A stretch of DNA of 64,000 nt, taken from positions 446,001 through 510,000 of the forward strand of contig CAUYUJ010018549.1 in assembly GCA_963575745.1 (NCBI GenBank), written 5' to 3'. Shown in pieces: positions 23,309 through 56,700 of the stretch. The DNA is from Prorocentrum cordatum (lineage: Eukaryota > Sar > Dinophyceae > Prorocentrales > Prorocentraceae). Within the stretch, counting starts at the first letter, position 1; each line of letters starts with the position of its first letter. Both the position numbers and the translations under genes were made by a program. Under the pieces are notes generated by a model that did not search any database, was not told the DNA's origin, and was given only the letters and a program-made list of their open reading frames with translations.

Positions 23309-23520
23309 TCTCCCTCATCATCATCACCATCATCATCTTCATCATCATTCTCATCTGCATCATAAGCATCACCATCATCCCCATTCACATCGTCATGATC
23401 GCCAGCATTCTCGTCAACAGTATCAGCATCATCGAGATCATCTGCATCGTGATCTCCATTTTCATCATCAGTATCAACATCATCACGTCTGCATCAGAAT
23501 CAACATCATCATCATTATCA
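23309..23520. repeat. CAT/ATC-rich triplet tract at retroelement boundary
   Basis: Imperfect (CAT)n with many substitutions. It abuts the outer edge of the B2 repeat of the retroelement. Confidence 0.85.
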
Positions 23521-23656
23521 TGCCCGGCGATGGTATTTCCGAGGCCAGGTCGGAGTATGTTAAACAGCAAGAGGCAGCACCGTGAACGACACTGGGGCTG
23601 GCAAGAGAGATAATTCATCAACCGAATTCGTGCTCTGGCAAACGGCCCCACGGCCA
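23519..23656. repeat. Split direct repeat B2 (outer 3' end)
   Basis: A 138-bp copy aligned without gaps to 23791-23928 (offset 272, 8 mismatches). Begins CATGCCCGGCGATGG next to the CAT tract. Confidence 0.92.
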
Positions 23657-23695
23657 CGGCGAAGCCTTGCAGCAGCAACAAGGCGGGAGGGTGGG

Positions 23696-23793
23696 AGCTC
23701 GAGAGCCGAAGGCTATTGACAAGAGACAACGCATTCTGCATTCGGCCTCGCCCTTCCCCTCTAGAGGCATTCGTCTTCAATAGAAAAGTCCAT
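23696..23793. repeat. Split direct repeat A2
   Basis: A 98-bp copy of 30111-30208 (offset 6415, 3 mismatches, no gaps). Starts AGCTCGAGAGCC and ends TAGAAAAGTCCAT. Its terminal CAT is shared with the start of B1. Confidence 0.93.
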
Positions 23794-23928
23794 GCCCGAC
23801 GATGGTATTTCCGAGGCCAGGTCGGAGTATGTTAGACAGCAAGAGGCAGCACCGTCAACGACACTGGGGCCGGAAAGAGAAATAATTCATCAACCGAATT
23901 CGTGCTCTGGCGCACGGCCCCACGGCCA
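23791..23928. repeat. Split direct repeat B1
   Basis: Internal copy of B2. It overlaps A2 by the 3 bases CAT, reproducing the junction expected in the circular intermediate of this element class. Confidence 0.92.
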
Positions 23929-23966
23929 AAACATCCCGAACAATCCAGAGGGCTACTCCTCTGATG

Positions 23967-24740
23967 TTAGCTGCCTAGCCAGAGCGGTGTGACTGACAGC
24001 GCCTCGTAGTGCAGTCTGGCACCGACGAGCGCGCGAGCCCATCGTCTCGCGAGCGTCTTGGGATAGGCTTGCGCAACTGAAGTCCACAAAGGCCTTCCAG
24101 GAGCTCCTCCTCTTAGAATTTGATGAGGCTGACCAGTCCTACTACAACAAGTACGAGAGCCAGTGCATAAGCGAGCGAAAGCCGAGACATCAACACGACA
24201 ACCTAGGAGGCCAGTCGGCTTTTGCCACGCTGTCCCATCTTGGCAAAAATGCGTGGCAGCCCAGAAAAAAAAGAGGTTGCTTACGACAGCTTTGCAGAGA
24301 CGGAATGAGCCACAGCCTGGACATCGCGGGATTCTCGACTGTAAAATGGATCTGCAGACGCTTACAACTGACCCAAAAAATCCCACAGCATCTCACTAGC
24401 TTATTGGCGGTCGTGATCTGAGCCCGGTCCACTGGGCGCGTCACAGCTGCAAGCCCCCAGAACTCTGAGTCGGAGCGAAGACGGCTCGGCCAGGACGGAG
24501 GCCCGCCTGGCACGCGCAGCGGTCCGGTGTCTCGGACTCTGGACCATGTCTCACAGGGCGCGCCGAAATTCATGCCCCAGATCAGGCCGGCGTCCAACCA
24601 GCCCCGCAGCACGCGGGGAGACCCTCGGGTCGGTGAGGTCCCAGTCGGCGCCCCAGGCGATGTCACATTCGATGGCCAGGGCGCCCTCGCTCCGCAAGGC
24701 TGCTGCAAGCACGCCTTCGCCGGAGAAGACCTCCACGAAG
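23967..24740 (-). pseudogene. C5-type DNA methyltransferase-like domain of the retroelement
   Basis: Last domain of ORF2. Motif I-like FVEVFSGEGVLAAALRSEG lies near 24739. The motif IV-like GAPCETWS has the Pro-Cys pair of C5 cytosine methyltransferases. ENP (motif VI-like) follows in HFTVENPAMSRLW. A C-terminal block TAWQKPTGLLGCRVD, then CSRTGQPHQILRG, completes it. The adenine-methylase motif DPPY/NPPF usual in DIRS elements was not seen. The domain is split by frameshifts near 24610 and 24260, so this copy is dead. C5-methyltransferases carried by dinoflagellate retrotransposons are known; linkage to a tyrosine recombinase is what stands out here. No target-recognition domain was recognised. 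Confidence 0.68.
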
Positions 24741-24786
24741 ATCGGCGGCGCCAGGAAGCGCCTGCGGCGGGGGCCCAGCAACCTCC

Positions 24787-25962
24787 TCAGCGCCAGCCGA
24801 GGAGAGAGGCCAGCCGTGCTGGGGCCAGCAGGGCCGCGCGCTGCACCTCGGGCGCCAGCCTCTGCAGCTGCTCGTTGACGCGGCCTGGCTTGAGGTAGCG
24901 CGCGACCGACGCGTCGGTCCGCCAGCGGCCGCGGAGCTTGACGCTGGCCAAGGTCCGCAACTGCAGTGCCAGCTCCACCGACGGGCCCGAGTGCCGGAGC
25001 TGGAACAGCTGCGGGATGAGCGACGCCAGCTCCATGTCCTCCGCCGCCTCCTTGAACAGGGAGCTGACGCGCACGAGGGGGAGCGGGAACAGCGGCTCGC
25101 TCGGGTGGGTCGCCGCCTTGAGCCAGCGGAGAGCGCTGGGTAGGAAGCTGTAGAAAGGCAAGTCGAAGGGGATCACCTCGTCGTAGACCTGAGTCTTGCT
25201 GGGCACTGCCAGCTCGCGAGGATGGAGCACCAGTGACCAGCCGTCGCACGCGCCCCCCGGCGTCGGGGGGATCAGGTGGGCCCCCAGGGCCCGCAACGCC
25301 TCCGACGGCCGCAGGTGGCCCGCGAAGGTCACCAGCACGTAGAGGGCGACCCGCAGCTGGCCCCGATCGATCAGGCGAGTCGCGATGAGCGCCACGATCT
25401 CCCAGGGCAGCGGGAGCCTGGTGCGAGCTGGCACTCGCATCCGCCAGCCTCGCAAGGCCTGCAGTGCCTTCGGCAGCCCCTGGCCCCCGCGCCCGAACTG
25501 CGGCATCATGAACTTCAGCGCCGCCAGCATGTAGGCCCCGCGCTCGGGGTTCCAGCCCTCGGCGCACTGCTGGTCCATCAAGTGCGCCAGCAGGTCGCCC
25601 ACTGTCTCGGTGCGGAGGGCCACGGTCAGTGTCGTCATCCAGGCCGCGAACTCGGCCCAGAGGCGCGTGTACTTGGCCCTCGTGGTCGCCGAGATCGAGA
25701 GGGCTCTCAGGACATTGCCCGCCAAGGATCGAAGGGGGGCTGCCTCGGGCGCTCGCGCCGCGGCCCTCCCCGCGCGCTTGGCGGCCGCCTCCGCAGCCTT
25801 TGACAAGTGGCTGCGTCTCGCCCGGCGCTGGCCTCGCTGCGAGGCCGTCGCCTGGCTGGGGCGCCCCGCTGCTGCCTGGCGCGGGACCGTCGCCGCGAGT
25901 GGCGCTGGCGTCAGCACCTGCCTGTCCGCCCTCCCGCCCGGCGGCCATACTGGCGACAGCAT
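24787..25962 (-). CDS. Tyrosine recombinase domain of the retroelement
   Basis: Open frame of up to 391 codons. An Arg/Ala-rich start leads into a core-binding-like segment (residues about 85-175) and the catalytic part. Arg218 in GHLRPSE is box I. RHSGPS (323-328) is the His-box region. GRWRTDASVARYLKPG (345-360) holds the expected Tyr356. The spacing fits DIRS-group and Crypton-type recombinases. It would integrate the cDNA circle without an integrase and without target duplication. It lies in a different frame from RNase H upstream, and its stop (near 24787) overlaps the methyltransferase frame. Its catalytic core is intact by eye. Confidence 0.8.
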   Translation of the reverse strand: MLSPVWPPGGRADRQVLTPAPLAATVPRQAAAGRPSQATASQRGQRRARRSHLSKAAEAAAKRAGRAAARAPEAAPLRSLAGNVLRALSISATTRAKYTRLWAEFAAWMTTLTVALRTETVGDLLAHLMDQQCAEGWNPERGAYMLAALKFMMPQFGRGGQGLPKALQALRGWRMRVPARTRLPLPWEIVALIATRLIDRGQLRVALYVLVTFAGHLRPSEALRALGAHLIPPTPGGACDGWSLVLHPRELAVPSKTQVYDEVIPFDLPFYSFLPSALRWLKAATHPSEPLFPLPLVRVSSLFKEAAEDMELASLIPQLFQLRHSGPSVELALQLRTLASVKLRGRWRTDASVARYLKPGRVNEQLQRLAPEVQRAALLAPARLASLLGWR

Positions 25963-25999
25963 CCCAGCGCAGCCGCGCGCCGATCCTCAGCGCCCGGCG

Positions 26000-28282
26000 G
26001 GAGGGCAGGTCCGCCGGGTTCGCCTCCGACGGGATCCACCGCAGCGCCGCGGTGGCGCCTCCTGCCACCACGAGGGCGGCCCACTGGCGGCAGATGCGCG
26101 CCATTCTCGGCCGCGAGGAGCGGCCCTTGGTCAGAGCCAGGACGGCGGCGAGACTGTCTGAGAGGAAGAGGACGCGATGGCCATGCTGCCCGGCGTCCCG
26201 GAGGACGTGCTTCAAGGCGTGGATTAGGGCCCCCCCCTCCAAGGCTGATGTGCCCCTCCCTCGCCCAGGCCCCGCTCGAGATGACAACCCAGTCCCCTGA
26301 GATGTGATGCGCCTCCAGAGGCTCGAAGTCGGTCTCCTGGGGCTCCGTGTGGGGGCTGCCTTTGTCCAGGGGGGCGACGGGCTCCTGGATGTGCGACGGG
26401 GCGCTGCATACGTGACCTTTCGAGGACGGCTCGGAGTAGACGAGGGTCCCCGGAGGCTCGAGGGGCTCGATGAGCTGCTCCCGGGGCGCCCTCGCACTGG
26501 GGTCTCGGAAGCGCCAGCGCTCCTGGATCCTACCCATCCTCTCCACCACGTCGTTGCTCATTTCACGCTCGCATACCCCTCGGCCCCACTCGGAGGCATC
26601 CGTGCGCAGAACTCGGCCCAGCCAGCGGGCCCGGAGGTCGGCGCGGGCCAGCGGGACAACCCCCGTGGCCCACGTCAGCTCTCGGCGCACGCTGGGCCAC
26701 CAAGGCCTAGGCGCCTCGCCGGCCTTTGCGACGAAGCGGTACACGGCCGAGAAAACTGCCAGCAGCGGGCGCCTCACCATGAAAAGGAAGGCGCAGTGGC
26801 CCGCGACCTGGCGCACCTGCTGGGCCGAGACCCTCGGCGCGGCGAGGAGCGCGCGCGTGGCCAGGATGATCCTCCGGGCTCTCCGAGGAGAAGGCGCGAC
26901 TGCTCCCCGCGCGCCATCGATGGCCCAGCCCAGCACCTGCGCGTGGAGCGAGGCGGCCTCCTCCTCATGCACCGGGAGGCCCTCGCTGCGCAGCTCGGCG
27001 ACTATGTCATCCTTCAGGCGGTCGGCGGTGTCACCGTCGAGGGCGAGGGAGGCGAAGTTGTCGACGTGCACGAGGTGCGCGCCGGCGCCCAGGCTAGGGC
27101 CGGTCCTCCGGTCCGCGATCCTGGACAGCACTGGCAGCCCTGCGCGGTCGGCGGCCGCCTCCGACACCCGCTGGCGGACGGCCAGCGCGTGGGGCCAGCC
27201 CATGGGCAGCGCCGCGAGCCGCGGCCAGAGCCGCTGCGCGCGCGGCTGCCCGGGGGCGGCCCCCCGCCCGAGCCTCCAGGAGTCCAGCGGAGGGAGCGCG
27301 AAGTACGACCTCCAAGCGTCCGGCAAGTGCATGGTGTAGAAGGCGTCCGCGATGTCCGCCGACGCGGTCCACAAGTTGGCGCCGTCCGGCAGCTCGATCG
27401 CCGCCAGCGCCGCGCCGGTGGCCAGGCGGGCGACCTCGGGGTCGCCGAACCAGAGGTTGGCGGGGCGGGCGTCCTCGACCAGCCGCTGCTTCCCACTCTT
27501 CTTGGCCACGCTGAATAGGTCAACCTCGTCGACCACCAGGGCGGCGTCGCTGACGAGGTCGACCACCCCGGCCTCGTGGAGACGCCTCGCCAGCGCTGCG
27601 TAGCGGCGAGGGTCTCGAAGGCAGGGGTCCGAGTAGGGCTTCTTGAAGCGAGCGCTCTGCTCCTGCTGCAAAACTTCGGTCTTTGGCATGACCTTGCACG
27701 CGATAACACGATAGACGGAGTCGAAAACCTCGGCCCCCAGCAGCCGCTCCAGCGCCACGGAGTGGTTACCTGGAGGAGGTAGCGAGAGCCGGGAGACGTC
27801 CATCGCCTCCGCCCTGGTCGACAGCGAGCCGTCGTAGGACAGAGCAGCCTGGAGCCCCTGCAGGGCTGCCAAAGGCTGTAGGTCGCCTGGCGGGGGACCC
27901 AGCTGGGAGACGGAGTCCGCGACCCGCGTCAGGCACTTCTGCTGCGCGAGCGTCGGCCAGCCCGCGGCAGCGAGCCGCCCTGCACCCCGGGACCGCTGAG
28001 ACCATTGAGCGCCTCGACCGCCTGCCGCGCGAGCCAGGGCGCGGGCGCCGCGCGCCGCGCGCGCCGCCGCGCGGCCCGGGAACAGACGCCAGCAGCCGGC
28101 CCGCCAGGGTCGGCGGCGCCAGGCACGGGCGGCGGAAAGAGGTCCCGCTGCCGCTCCGCGCCCGAGCTGTCGAAAGTGCTGTGTACACCCTCAGCGCCAC
28201 TGGTAGTCGCCGAGATGGGCCCCGATACCGTAGCGCCCGGGGGAGCTGGGCCACAGGGCCCCCCCGGGCATGAGAGAGTCAT
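26000..28282 (-). pseudogene. Reverse transcriptase and RNase H of the retroelement (ORF2)
   Basis: ORF2 begins with an ATG at 28282 overlapping the ORF1 stop as ATGA. After a frameshift near 27962 (into WPTLAQQKC) the frame runs to about 26240. The reverse transcriptase includes LFSVAKKSGKQRLVEDARPA, ASADIADAFYTMHLPDAW (first catalytic Asp in DIADAF) and LVHVDNFASL, where HVDN replaces the usual YxDD. RNase H starts at RTDASEWGRG. After another shift at a G-run near 26235 it continues with ALEGGALIHALKHVL, FLSDSLAAV and NPADLPSR, supplying the expected E, D and D. Domain order is as in DIRS-group Pol proteins. At least two frameshifts break it. Confidence 0.8.
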
Positions 28283-30084
28283 GCCTTGGCTCCGCCGGCT
28301 TTCGGCCCAGCGGCGGCCTTCGCCTCCTCCCGCAGCTTGCGGGCGTTCTTCTTGATCTGACTGATGCGCTCGAGCTCCTTGCCGACCACGTCAATCAGGG
28401 CGGGGCGCGCTATGCTGCTTGGACGATTCGACGGGCCCGTGCCGCCCATGAAAGCGGAGACCTCCTCCACCGGCAGCTCCAGCTGCCCCGCATCCTGCTC
28501 CCGTTGCTTCTCGCCCCAGAAGTGCCCGATCAGCTGCGTCTTCCTCAGAAGACGCTCCGCGCCGAGGAGGTTCGTCGCGTTCACCTCGTCGTGCGTGGCG
28601 AGGTCCTCGAGCACGGTGGAGAGCGTGTGGCGCTCCGAGACGCCCCAGTCCGAGGAGTTGAGCCTCTTGCGGGACTTCCAGCTCTCGCGGTGCTAGATCG
28701 GCCCGCCCTTCCGCAGCAGCCGCGCCGCGCACCAGCCCGCGGACCTCGGCTGCAAGGTGAAGCTGGGGTCTGCCACCTCCACCGCCGACTCGGTCACTGC
28801 GAGCCAGCTCCGTGCCGGGCGAACGCCCGGCGTGCGCGCCAAGATCCTCGCGCCGGTCCCCCGCCGCTTGTCGATGAAACCACCTCGCCGCCAGTCCTCC
28901 AAGAGGAACGCCATGGCGGAGGCACCTCCGACGGGAGTGATGGTCGCACGTCGGCCCGCTCACGCTGCCAAGATCGCGCCACCGATCGGGCCGAATTGCG
29001 CCGCCGAGCCGTAGGCGAGGCCGCCTGCATCCTCGGCGTGCACCCACGACCAGCCCGCTGGCGCCTCGCCGTTCGGCCCGAGGGGGCGCCGCCGTCGTCC
29101 TTCCTGGAGGGTCCTGGAGGCGCTCCGACGGCCGGGGGTGCGCCCGGCGCGATGGGCACGCCGGCCGCCGGGCCTGGCACCGCCGCGGCGAGCGGTCCGT
29201 CGGGCGCGGGCGGCCCGGCAGCGGCCAGCGCGGCAGCGGCGACCCCAGCCGCGGGCGGTGCGGCGGCAGCCCCATCGGGAGGCGGCACGGGCCCGACGAC
29301 GGCGGCTGGCGCGGCCGCGGGCGCCGCGAACCCCGGCAGCAGGCCGCCCGCCATCGGCACCAGGGCGCCGCCGGGCGGCACGGGCACCCCTGGATGGCGG
29401 CGGCCGAACTCGGCGTCGGCCTCCGCGACGGCGGCCGCCAGCCAGGCCGCCTCGCGCGCCGCCGAAGGGGCCTGGCGGAACCTGTGCGTCGCGCCAGGGT
29501 CGATCCCCGGCGGCGGCGGCCACCTCGTAGTCGAGAACCGCACCGCCGAAATGTCGGGCCCCGCCGTCAGCAAGGTCTCGGCATAGACCATTTCATCAGG
29601 GGTCACGATGATCACGTCACTCGTGAGCGCCAGCTGGCCTGCTACCCTCCTCTGGTGGATCAGCGGCGCGCCGACCACTTTGTAGAGGACCCACGCCCAC
29701 GCCTCCGACATGAGGCCCAGCGGCGAGCGCAGCGAGCGGCCACTGTGTCCCTGACACGCTGGCGACCGTCGCGGGTCGGCCGCGGCCATCCGCAGCACCC
29801 CAGCGCGGCGCCCAGAGCCAGAGCGCCGTGAAGGTGCCGAGGGCCCCGAGCGACGCGCCAGCCAGCGCGGCCGTCCCGCAGGCGAGTGCGACAGTGCCCG
29901 TGGTCGCGCCCACTGAGGCATCAGGGCAGGGCGGGCAGGCTGGGCAGCTGCAGCCCGGGAGCGCTGGGCACGGCGGGAGCTTCACCACCGGGCAGCGTGC
30001 GACCCAGGCCTGGAGCGCGGGGACGCCCCAGCGGTCGATGAGCCCCGCCCAGCCCGCGGGAAACCCCAGGAAGGCCCCGGCCAT
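28279..30084 (-). pseudogene. Gag-like ORF1 of the retroelement
   Basis: The ATG at 30084 is 27 bp inside repeat A1. The N-terminal part has Cys/Pro spacing CPACPPCPD and a long hydrophobic, probably transmembrane segment (GTVALACGTAALAGASLGAL and beyond). Next come IIVTPDEMVYAETL, an Ala/Pro linker, a segment ending ARLLRKGGPI, and NATNLLGAERLLRKTQLIG. The second retroelement in the window has matching blocks, so this is a conserved ORF1 and not noise. It is broken by frameshifts near 29740 and 28920 and by one in-frame TAG (28693-28695). A membrane segment in a Gag-position protein is unusual. Nucleic-acid binding is inferred from position only. Confidence 0.65.
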
Positions 30085-30110
30085 GCGCCGCGGTCAAGCC
30101 GCGGCCCACC

Positions 30111-30208
30111 AGCTCGAGAGCCGGAGGCTATTGACAAGAGACAACGCATTCTGCATTCGGCCTCTCCCTTCCCCTCTAGAGGCATTCATCTTCAATAGAA
30201 AAGTCCAT
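30111..30208. repeat. Split direct repeat A1 (outer 5' end)
   Basis: Matches 23696-23793. Outer edge is TAGAAAAGTCCAT followed by CATCGTCGTCTGCATCATC, that is, CAT-rich target DNA. Confidence 0.93.
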
Positions 30209-53758: not shown

Positions 53759-56700
53759 TCATTCGCTTAGAGGCCCCGGACGAGGGCCGCAATGCTTGCG
53801 CAGACTCTCGGGGCTACCATGCGCAAGCTGAAACGAAACCGATCGGGGACGGGTGCCGACAGAGTCGGGGCGGGAATCGCTCTGAAATCCGTCTCGGGAA
53901 AAGAACGGGCCCCGAGATCCCGCCGCATTACCATGGGTCTGTCCAGAGTCACGAGGGGCATGCTTATGGCGAGGGGGTCGGTCAACATCGTCCTTCCCAC
54001 TGGCTGTGGATGGCTGCTGAGGCCGAAACAACCGGGAGGAGGCGTCGGCAGGGCCCCTTCCTGACGCGATCCAGCGGGCCACCAAATATGCGTTGCGACT
54101 GCGGCACTAGGCGGCTGTTCTCCTCAGGGTGATCAAGCTATTGAAGCTGCGGCAACGCCACCTGCCGACTGCGAGCGCGATGCTGAGGTTGTCGGCAAAC
54201 AGGGCCCGCCGAACGCTGCGCCCGAACCTCGCGCGGCTGACGCGCTCTAGGCCCCAGAGCAAGCCGCGCGCCTCTAGCGCCATGGCGTCCTCGACCCGGC
54301 CGCGCTTCCAGCCGCCGGCGGCGGTCCAAGACGCGGTCGGGAAGCTGGGGGCCCCCGCGAACTCGGGGTCGGGCCGGCGACCAGGGCAACCCTCGACGCC
54401 GAGATCCTCATGTAGATCTGGGCCGCCGCCGAGCGCGGCGGCCCGAGCGCCCGCGCGGTCCACGGCCAGGTAGCGGTCGCGCCCCGGGCAGCGACCGATC
54501 GAGGCGACGTCGCCTGGGTCGAACCAGCGAGCGCAGATGCCGCGGCCCTACTCCGAAGAGTCCGTCGCCGCGACCAGGGGATCCCAGTCGGGCTCCCGCG
54601 CGGGCACCAACGACGCCATCGGGCCCGCGAGCGCCCGCGGCTGGACAGCGGCCGACGGCCAGAGCGTGAAGGGCTGTTCGTACTGAATCCCGATGAAGGA
54701 GTAGACCGTCGAGAAGACTGACGCGGTCTCACCGCGCGCCAAGCCGCAGGAGGTCGCGCGGCCGATCGCCACCTCGACTTGGCGGCCCGAAACGCGACGA
54801 CGACCGGCAAGGGCCAGAAAAAGCGCTTCGAAGGTGCCAGAACCGCTTGGCAGTCAACCTCGCGCGCCACCGACGCTCGCCCAGCAGCGCGCCCGGCGCC
54901 TCGATAGGTGGTCGCCACCTCGTGCGCGGCGAGAGCCCCTCGCCTCGAAGGTCGCGCGCGCGTCCTCGAGCTCGGGCGCGACCGCCCCGCCGTCGGAGCC
55001 GAAAACCCCGATGTTGTCGACGTGGGTGCAATGCCTGGCGCTGCTCGCGCGCTCGCCGCGGAGCGTGGGCGCCAGGGGCTGACCTCGGCCGGGGCGGTGT
55101 TCAGCTCGGCTCAGCACCTTGCTGGGGACCTCCTCGTCGACATCCTGCGCCGAAAACGGACCCCAGGAGAAGCCAATGGGGAAGCGGCAGGGCCGAGACG
55201 TGATCATATCATCAGGGCCGACCATGCCGCCCAGGGTCTCTGTCGCGCCGGCGCCCCCCGCGCGCGCCCGGGGCGGCCCCGACCGCCGCGGCAACCGGGC
55301 AGGGGCGCCCATCCCGTGGATGGCGCCCTGGACCTCAGCGGCCCCGCAACAAAGCCATGCGCCATCATGTCCGTCGGGAAGCTCCTCCAAGATGCGGCCG
55401 AGGCCCTCGGCTGTCAAAAGATCAACGCGCGGCGGCGGCGCGAAGCGCCGATTGGTCCGCCTTGCATTCATTGCGAGGCGAAGCTGATCATCCTTCTCGC
55501 GAACAAGGAAGATACCTGTTTGCTCATGGGCCCAGCCGCCGAAGACCAGCATGTTCCTGGCCGTGAGGTCGCGGGCGGATCTAGCGCGCGTCGGGCTGCT
55601 GGCGAGCTGGGGGCCCGCGCGGCATCGCTCAGCACTTTTGACAGCAGTGTCCTCAGCAGTCGGATTCAGCAGGCGCTCTCCTGCGCCTGCCAGAAAGAGT
55701 CGGCCGCGCTCTCCCACCAATTCCGAGATGTCGGGGGCGCTGGTCCTCATCTCGGGCAGGGGGGCCCCGCCGCGATGGTCGGGCGCGAGCGTAGTCGATG
55801 AGGCGTCCATCCTGTTGCCAGATGCCTCGTCGCAGAGCAATTCTCAAAACAAATGCCACTTCTGGCGGCTCGTGGAAATCCCGACTGGCGTCGCGCGCTC
55901 GAAGATCAGCCGGCGCCTCGGGGCAAGCCGGAGACTTTCCCAGCTGCGGCGGGGCCTTCCGTAGGAGCGGCCCCATCGCCGGCACCGGTTGAATCGGAGC
56001 GACCTCGGACAGCGCGCAGACGACGGCGATCGGCCTCGGCAAGCTAGTTATGCGCATGTGACGGAGGCCTCCACCAGCAGTCTGATATGATCGCGGCAGC
56101 GGTAGTGTTCCCCACGTCGACCGCCAGCAAGTGGCGCGAGTTCTCGCCGAGGAACAGCCGGCGGGAACTGCTCGAAAAAACGGGGGCGAGCAGGCGCCCA
56201 GAAGTCCCTGGCCTTCAGCGGGCCGCGGCGTGGAGGGCCTGTCCGCTGCCCGTCATCCTGCTCGCTCAGTCCACTGGGCTGCGAGGCCTCGCCCGCCCCG
56301 CCCGCCCCGGCCAGCCTCGTCGCCGCCGCCGCGGCCTCAGCCGCCGTCAGCGGCGCCCTGGCCGCTTCCAGCGTCGGCAGCGTCCGCGGGCCGCGAATGG
56401 CGCGTCCGAGCGCCCTCGATCTCGTTCTGGTCCTGACGCTCGTTGATGCCCCACTTCCGCGGGGCAGGGGCGATGGCGCTGCCGAATTTGGCCTCGCCCT
56501 GGTAGTCGGCGGCCACGCGCCGCGACGGGGCGCCGCCACCAGCAGAGCAGGCGTCGATCGCGCCCGGCAGCCGACAAACTATCTCCTCCATGCCCGCCGA
56601 CGCGCCCAAGTTCAACTGGTCGTGCTCGCCGAACAATTTGAACCATTCCGCGAGCGTGGTCATCTCGTGGTAGATTTGGTCCGTCTTCGAGACGTTGCTG

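Follow-up and report, generated by a model that had tools for sequence, protein, structure and literature searches.

A 64,000-nucleotide stretch of the dinoflagellate Prorocentrum cordatum (assembly GCA_963575745.1, contig CAUYUJ010018549.1, positions 446,001 to 510,000; hereafter the window, meaning this stretch at its full length) raises the question of whether a retrotransposon can carry a DNA methyltransferase as part of its own machinery, and of how such an element finds its insertion sites. The minus-strand element at 23519-30208 of the window is a decayed copy of a tyrosine recombinase (YR) retrotransposon, very probably one of the DIRS order that resembles the PAT and DIRS groups and follows a life cycle of the kind proposed below. 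It joins a reverse transcriptase (RT) and an RNase H-like region to a YR, which is the domain combination of the DIRS order, and it also contains a methyltransferase-like (MT) domain. The original prediction, made from the sequence alone, had placed four repeats (A1, B1, A2 and B2) around these domains, and their coordinates proved exact: A1 and A2 are 97% identical over 98 nt, B1 and B2 are 94% identical over 138 nt, and 11 of 236 sites (4.7%) differ between the repeat pairs of the window copy. The layout A1-ORFs-B1-A2-B2 (ORF, open reading frame), which is the split-direct-repeat arrangement of PAT elements, is found in the window family and also in the relatives L041 and L042.

The element belongs to a multi-copy family. 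A search of the genome (4.13 Gb in 21,875 contigs) gave 66 candidate matches to the A repeat, 40 of which were scored, and 24 of these form 12 pairs with a spacing of 5.3-6.4 kb; thus, the repeats are not due to chance. Among these 12 paired copies, namely the window copy and 11 others, B1 and A2 are present in all and B2 in 11, the B2 match being missing in L014, which contains 961 N, and the B repeats and A2 being partial in L016. The order RT-RNase H-YR-MT is kept in 12/12 copies, with the first piece of the MT missing in L017. Moreover, element coding sequence accompanies the A repeat in all 12 pairs, and at least eight of the 16 unpaired matches (L004, L020-L022, and four more beside MT matches) lie with such coding sequence or within ~1 kb of it; in these loci, the repeats are not unrelated sequences dispersed without the ORFs. 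Matches to the MT were scored for 150 of 9,071 first-look candidates. In 20 further loci of a sister family, chosen by their MT, a YR adjoins the MT in every case, and RT, YR, and MT follow in the same order in 16, the other four being without an RT in the stretch examined. Neither in the 12 copies nor in these 20 loci is the MT a separate neighbor, and L046-L049 are too short to judge. A sister copy at ~2526-4364 of L030 has its recombinase interrupted by a tandem array of ~90-bp units, and another locus, L038, is apparently shortened internally, with an A repeat ~0.5 kb ahead of its YR match.

That the MT is part of the element, as originally predicted, is borne out by the domain order in all 12 copies and by its divergence. 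Over 20 loci, MT distances are correlated with those of the YR (r 0.885) and the RT (r 0.825), the range among the three domains being 0.79-0.89, and 0 of 2000 permutations reached the observed correlations, which indicates that the MT has traveled with the element. The MT is also under purifying selection. Its ratio of nonsynonymous to synonymous divergence (dN/dS), estimated for L009 against eight sister-family loci, is 0.08-0.18, as compared with 0.28-0.44 for the YR and 0.28-0.47 for the RT, values that are rough because dS exceeds 1. Within the family, the pooled polymorphism ratios (pN/pS) are 0.37 for the MT, 0.89 for the YR, and, for the RT taken in two halves, 0.53 and 0.74, values to be expected where many copies are dead.

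The next question is which protein contains the MT. The coding sequence of the window copy is scattered over several frames. In three relatives with open frames (L040, L041, and L042), RT, RNase H, a spacer, and the MT are read through in a single open Pol frame, 1593, 1466, and 1593 codons long, respectively, and the whole YR ORF (683, 498, and 503 codons, stop to stop) lies inside Pol in the +1 frame. Across the YR core, the Pol frame has no stops in any of the three, whereas synonymous shuffles give 4.5, 3.4, and 4.3 expected stops (P = 0.004, 0.02, and 0.005), and in the unused frame, where 8.0, 8.5, and 12.9 stops are expected, there are 10, 12, and 13. At third positions of this core, GC amounts to 0.86-0.89 for the YR frame as compared with 0.52-0.53 for the Pol frame, which marks the YR as the main reading; the Pol frame across it looks like a carried linker. 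The location of the MT in pol and the overlap of YR with pol, a trait of the PAT/DIRS group, are thus seen in L040, L041, and L042, the window copy being too broken. The minus-strand order RT-RNase H-YR-MT of the original prediction stands, but the MT is not a continuation of the YR, since in the relatives it belongs to the Pol frame. For the same reason, a YR-MT fusion protein was ruled out, the continuous frame of the relatives being RT-RNase H-MT.

In the window, the YR stop is followed directly by the MT, set one frame back, and the same step back is found in 11/11 window-family copies in which both domains were placed, the YR stop being kept in 10/12. This arrangement speaks for an MT produced from the YR ORF by a -1 frameshift or by reinitiation, separately from Pol. 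Such a product is nevertheless quite improbable in view of the unbroken RT-to-MT frame of L040, L041, and L042, with fewer stops than expected, and of the 29 of 150 scored MT matches whose frame is free of stops over 1300 codons or more (by eye). Two observations weaken the reading of a YR nested within a Pol frame that ends in the MT: the nested-frame test does not reach significance when run on the window by itself (0 stops against 2.1 expected, P = 0.084), and of the 20 sister-family loci 12 clearly show the YR-to-MT offset, 7 do not have it, and 1 is ambiguous (by eye).

The individual domains of the window copy are listed in Table 1. Searches with the open-frame relatives (tblastn) cover the minus strand of the window at 29073-28324 (gag-like), 27806-26132 (RT-RNase H), 25719-24838 (YR), and 24748-23976 (MT), and the RNase H-like region gave no profile match. 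Profile searches of the kind proposed in the original prediction, run on the relatives, yielded sub-threshold matches of L042 to RVT_1 (E 1.2e-4) and to PF00589 (E 0.01), both short of the curated cut-off, but none to PF00145. An RT profile of the three relatives matched a POL protein among the solved structures at E 0.014. In an alignment of four YRs, all (4/4) keep the box arginine and the RH pair, and 3/4 keep the catalytic Tyr. Several features of these enzymes count against the DIRS-type reading of the element. The second Asp of the RT active site is replaced by Asn (VDN) in 24/29 aligned loci, with Asp in one, and L040-L042 have the Asn too; RT catalysis is therefore only presumed. The catalytic Tyr of the YR is present in only 20/33 aligned loci and is replaced by Cys in L041, although the frames of this relative are open. 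Moreover, a YR profile found no match among solved structures at E up to 1, and a structure model of the YR from the window sequence alone was poor (predicted local distance difference test, pLDDT, 44). The same Asp-to-Asn change is described for the RTs of the Cer7-Cer12 elements, whose activity is given as unknown in the accessible text of PMC554778. As an observation in its own right, VDN in place of xDD may be a polymerase oddity fixed across the clade.

Table 1. Features of the element and its 3' flank (window coordinates)
Feature	Position	Strand	Evidence or remark
A1, 5' split direct repeat (left end of element)	30111..30208	-	starts ATGGACTTTT; repeat comparison
gag-like ORF1	28324..29073	-	44% to L040 ORF1, 31% to part of L042 ORF1 (tblastn)
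Reverse transcriptase domain	26724..27650	-	active-site motif HVDNF; tblastn
RNase H-like region, split over two frames	25997..26627	-	motifs by eye
Tyrosine recombinase core, within open frame 24787-25986	24796..25731	-	HLRPSE, LRHSG, GRWRTDASVARYLKPGR
MT-like domain, several frames	23976..24751	-	FVEVFSGEG, GAPCETWSR, VENPAMSRLW
B1 repeat	23791..23928	-	final ATG common to A2
A2 repeat	23696..23793	-	3-nt overlap (ATG) with B1
B2 repeat, 3' end of element	23519..23656	-	GGGCATG adjoins ATAATGATG
Imperfect TCATCA (GAT-type) microsatellite touching B2, target on 3' side	23315..23521	.	61% matches

Elsewhere in the window, the minus strand at 54467-55576 contains a second, more diverged RT of broadly similar type (25-30% to L040/L042, motif THVDN), near which the YR and MT queries from L040/L042 found no match; this RT could be left over from a decayed copy or belong to an element of a different type.

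As to where these elements insert, the 12 window-family copies are located in GAT/ATG-rich simple sequence. The density of ATG rotations was measured in 60-nt flanks, 22 of which were available for the 12 copies as placement failed for two 3' flanks, and was compared with 60-mers from the rest of the window only, the better strand being taken. The mean density is 0.58 over the 22 flanks against 0.059 for the background; 19/22 flanks exceed the 99th percentile of the background (0.19) and 22/22 are at its 95th percentile (0.14) or more. All 12 copies reach a density of 0.47 or more on at least one side, and 7/10 copies with two flanks measured pass the 99th percentile on both sides. The 3' flank of the window copy has a density of 0.52. 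In the sister family, the 3' flanks of 11 loci (10 of them independent, the flank of L021 and L022 being one and the same) have densities of 0.33-0.83. Other lineages of the same genome have different surroundings: in L038 and L040 (a related lineage, 2 loci) the 3' flanks are (CCT)n, with densities of 0.86 and 0.74, and in L036 and L037 (another lineage, 2 loci) no microsatellite was found at the 3' flank. Literature searches of titles and abstracts, in which subscription papers are thinly covered, found no trinucleotide-microsatellite targeting by DIRS elements.

The overlap between B1 and A2 is ATG in 10/10 window-family copies compared (L014 and L016 left out), the same trinucleotide as the repeat unit, which fits the integration of a circle at a matching 3-bp core. 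Neither the microsatellite target nor this match was part of the original prediction. The flank repeats of several copies are imperfect and three of the 22 flanks do not exceed the 99th percentile of a background taken from a single window, as might be the case if there were no targeting and the elements had merely survived or accumulated in microsatellite-rich DNA, or if the repeats had grown from the element ends after insertion. This explanation is highly improbable, given that every copy has at least one strongly repetitive flank, that both flanks pass the 99th percentile in most copies with two measured, that the other lineages are associated with (CCT)n or with no microsatellite, and that the repeat unit equals the B1/A2 overlap. 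Some details nonetheless fit targeting of (GAT)n less well: the 5' flank of the window copy is weakly ATG-rich (0.16), the 3' flank of L011 is the lowest (0.14), a further copy, L004, has the same microsatellite reversed, (CAT)n, at its 5' flank, and the A and B queries were taken from the window and cut there with the 3-nt overlap. ATG stands on both sides of the insertion and the target itself is an ATG repeat, so that a target-site duplication is hard to tell. The junction of the (CCT)n lineage, GGCAT next to GC, is without a complete CCT unit, and the match between junction and target may be shorter in that lineage.

A life cycle can be proposed for the intact form of this element. The Pol protein, with RT, RNase H, spacer, and MT, would copy the element RNA, and the split repeats would let the complementary DNA (cDNA) close into a circle, in which B would come next to A at a junction with the 3-bp core ATG (junction DNA of the proposed circle, ..GGGCATGGAC..). 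Strand exchange by the YR, made from the nested overlapping frame, would then join this core to one of the ATG units in a (GAT)n microsatellite, and the target would not be duplicated upon integration. As a physical part of the reverse-transcribing protein, the MT could modify the cDNA or the circle of its own element.

Whether this modification would concern cytosine depends on the identity of the MT. It reads FSGxG, GxPCxTW, and ENP, with motif I, the PC of motif IV, and the EN of motif VI all present, and over 34 loci the PC Cys is found in 30, the ENP Glu in 30, and the ENP Asn in 28. These three motifs are typical of C5 methyltransferases, in which the usual motif VI is ENV. From its motifs, the MT is likely of the C5 type, and cytosine methylation of the element's own DNA would be the corresponding activity. 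The C5-type assignment of the original prediction is thus upheld by the motifs but not by the family profile. PF00145 was not detected in 3/3 open-frame relatives (E up to 1) or in 2/2 window-family MTs (E up to 10), the best solved-structure match is M.HaeIII at E 0.34 (0.67 with a larger profile), and a profile-profile comparison with three PF00145 proteins of the genome aligns motif I only, at a probability of 46%; all of this weakens the C5 reading. As a positive control, PF00145 gives at least 129 matches in the same genome, and among the matches listed no place coincides with an MT place (by eye). Since PF00145 fails to detect it, the MT is probably not a Dnmt3, and Dnmt3 was dropped as the likeliest reading because the profile, although frequent in the genome, is absent from the MT. 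Many of the PF00145 matches are located in open frames of 383, 386, 401, and 402 codons, recurring lengths that suggest a repeated family reminiscent of SymbioLINE-Dnmt ORF1.

It is possible, though rather doubtful, that the MT has lost its catalytic activity or has a different substrate, be it RNA or a position other than cytosine C5. The MT is without a confident family match, its matches being weak (best E 0.0034) and for the most part with DNA methyltransferases of PHROG, and its motif VI is ENP instead of ENV; however, GxPC and EN are conserved and the low dN/dS of the MT indicates constraint. Relatives of the MT were found neither in viral or prokaryote contigs (pattern scans) nor in phages (tblastn with two MTs). 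CpG depletion, which could be a trace of methylation, was found neither in the window element, with an observed to expected ratio of 0.99 (0.90 for the window outside the element), nor in L009, L012, L018, L040, L041, and L042 (0.97-1.00).

A broader reading, to which we give even chances, is that of a clade of YR retrotransposons, numerous in the genome, with lineages specialized on (GAT)n or (CCT)n as the junction core matches the repeat unit, and with a DNA methyltransferase captured independently of those of Dam-type DIRS and Dnmt3-type SymbioDIRS elements, fused to the cDNA-making enzyme, in a coding sequence that spans a fully nested recombinase gene. If this is true, simple repeats would be safe landing sites for a recombinase-driven retrotransposon, a 3-bp junction core that matches the repeat unit would be a testable rule of target choice, and sister lineages with other repeats would form a natural series on recombinase specificity. 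The capture of a methyltransferase by DIRS-type elements would also apparently have a third form, which would argue that modification of an element's DNA is of use to this life cycle, whichever enzyme carries it out.

Comparison with known systems, as described in the accessible parts of the papers cited, places the element near the PAT-like and DIRS1-like groups, with which it shares a YR with RT/RNase H, an MT in pol, and a YR-pol overlap (PMC3266345). DIRS1 is described as integrating where the genome has the same 3-mer as the 3-bp junction of its circle, without duplicating the target (PMC3266345), and the present element resembles DIRS1 in its proposed 3-bp circular junction and PAT in its split direct repeats. 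However, the catalytic part of the DIRS1 YR is located in the non-overlapping 3' end, whereas in L040-L042 the entire YR ORF lies inside Pol, and microsatellite targeting by PAT-like or DIRS1-like elements is unmentioned in those parts of the paper (PMC3266345). Furthermore, the methyltransferases of DIRS elements are of the Dam/N6A type (PMC5890265), whereas the present motifs are C5-like. Ngaro and VIPER have the A1-B1-A2-B2 split direct repeats (PMC6681497) but are said to be without an MT and usually without ORF overlap (PMC3266345); assignment to Ngaro was excluded by the presence of the MT. By target alone, the element can be set beside TATE of kinetoplastids, a YR retrotransposon found at one position in a short tandem repeat, although that target is a telomeric hexamer and not a trinucleotide microsatellite (PMC6681497). 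Endogenous nimaviruses with a telomere-specific YR likewise show that YR families can insert into simple repeats, but these are large DNA viruses of crustaceans and not retrotransposons (PMC10871703).

The closest likeness is to SymbioDIRS-Dnmt3, of which two architectures are described in Symbiodinium (de Mendoza et al. 2018, PMC5890265): these are dinoflagellate DIRS-type elements with the layout A-coding-B-A-B, Dnmt3 in Pol with RT, and a separate YR ORF, and the present element shares this layout, a methyltransferase in Pol with RT, and a YR ORF of its own. Thus, the distinct, poorly described group that the original prediction had envisaged is not new as such, C5-methyltransferase DIRS elements in this layout having been published in 2018, and the coupling of circle integration to cytosine methylation loses its novelty as well, because methylation of cDNA upon reverse transcription was already proposed for SymbioDIRS-Dnmt3 (PMC5890265). 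The shared repeat layout and ORF arrangement might mean that the element is SymbioDIRS-Dnmt3 in another dinoflagellate, its MT being a diverged Dnmt3. That is unlikely: the DNA methyltransferases of that study were defined by PF00145 and placed in the Dnmt3 clade (PMC5890265), whereas this domain is absent from the MTs of all three open-frame relatives and both window-family copies in a genome where the profile is frequent, and, among the matches listed, PF00145 places and MT places never coincide by eye. A microsatellite target is also not mentioned in the accessible text of PMC5890265. As far as the searches reach, what the present elements apparently add to the known DIRS-type systems is a non-Dnmt3 MT, a wholly nested YR frame, and lineage-specific microsatellite targets.

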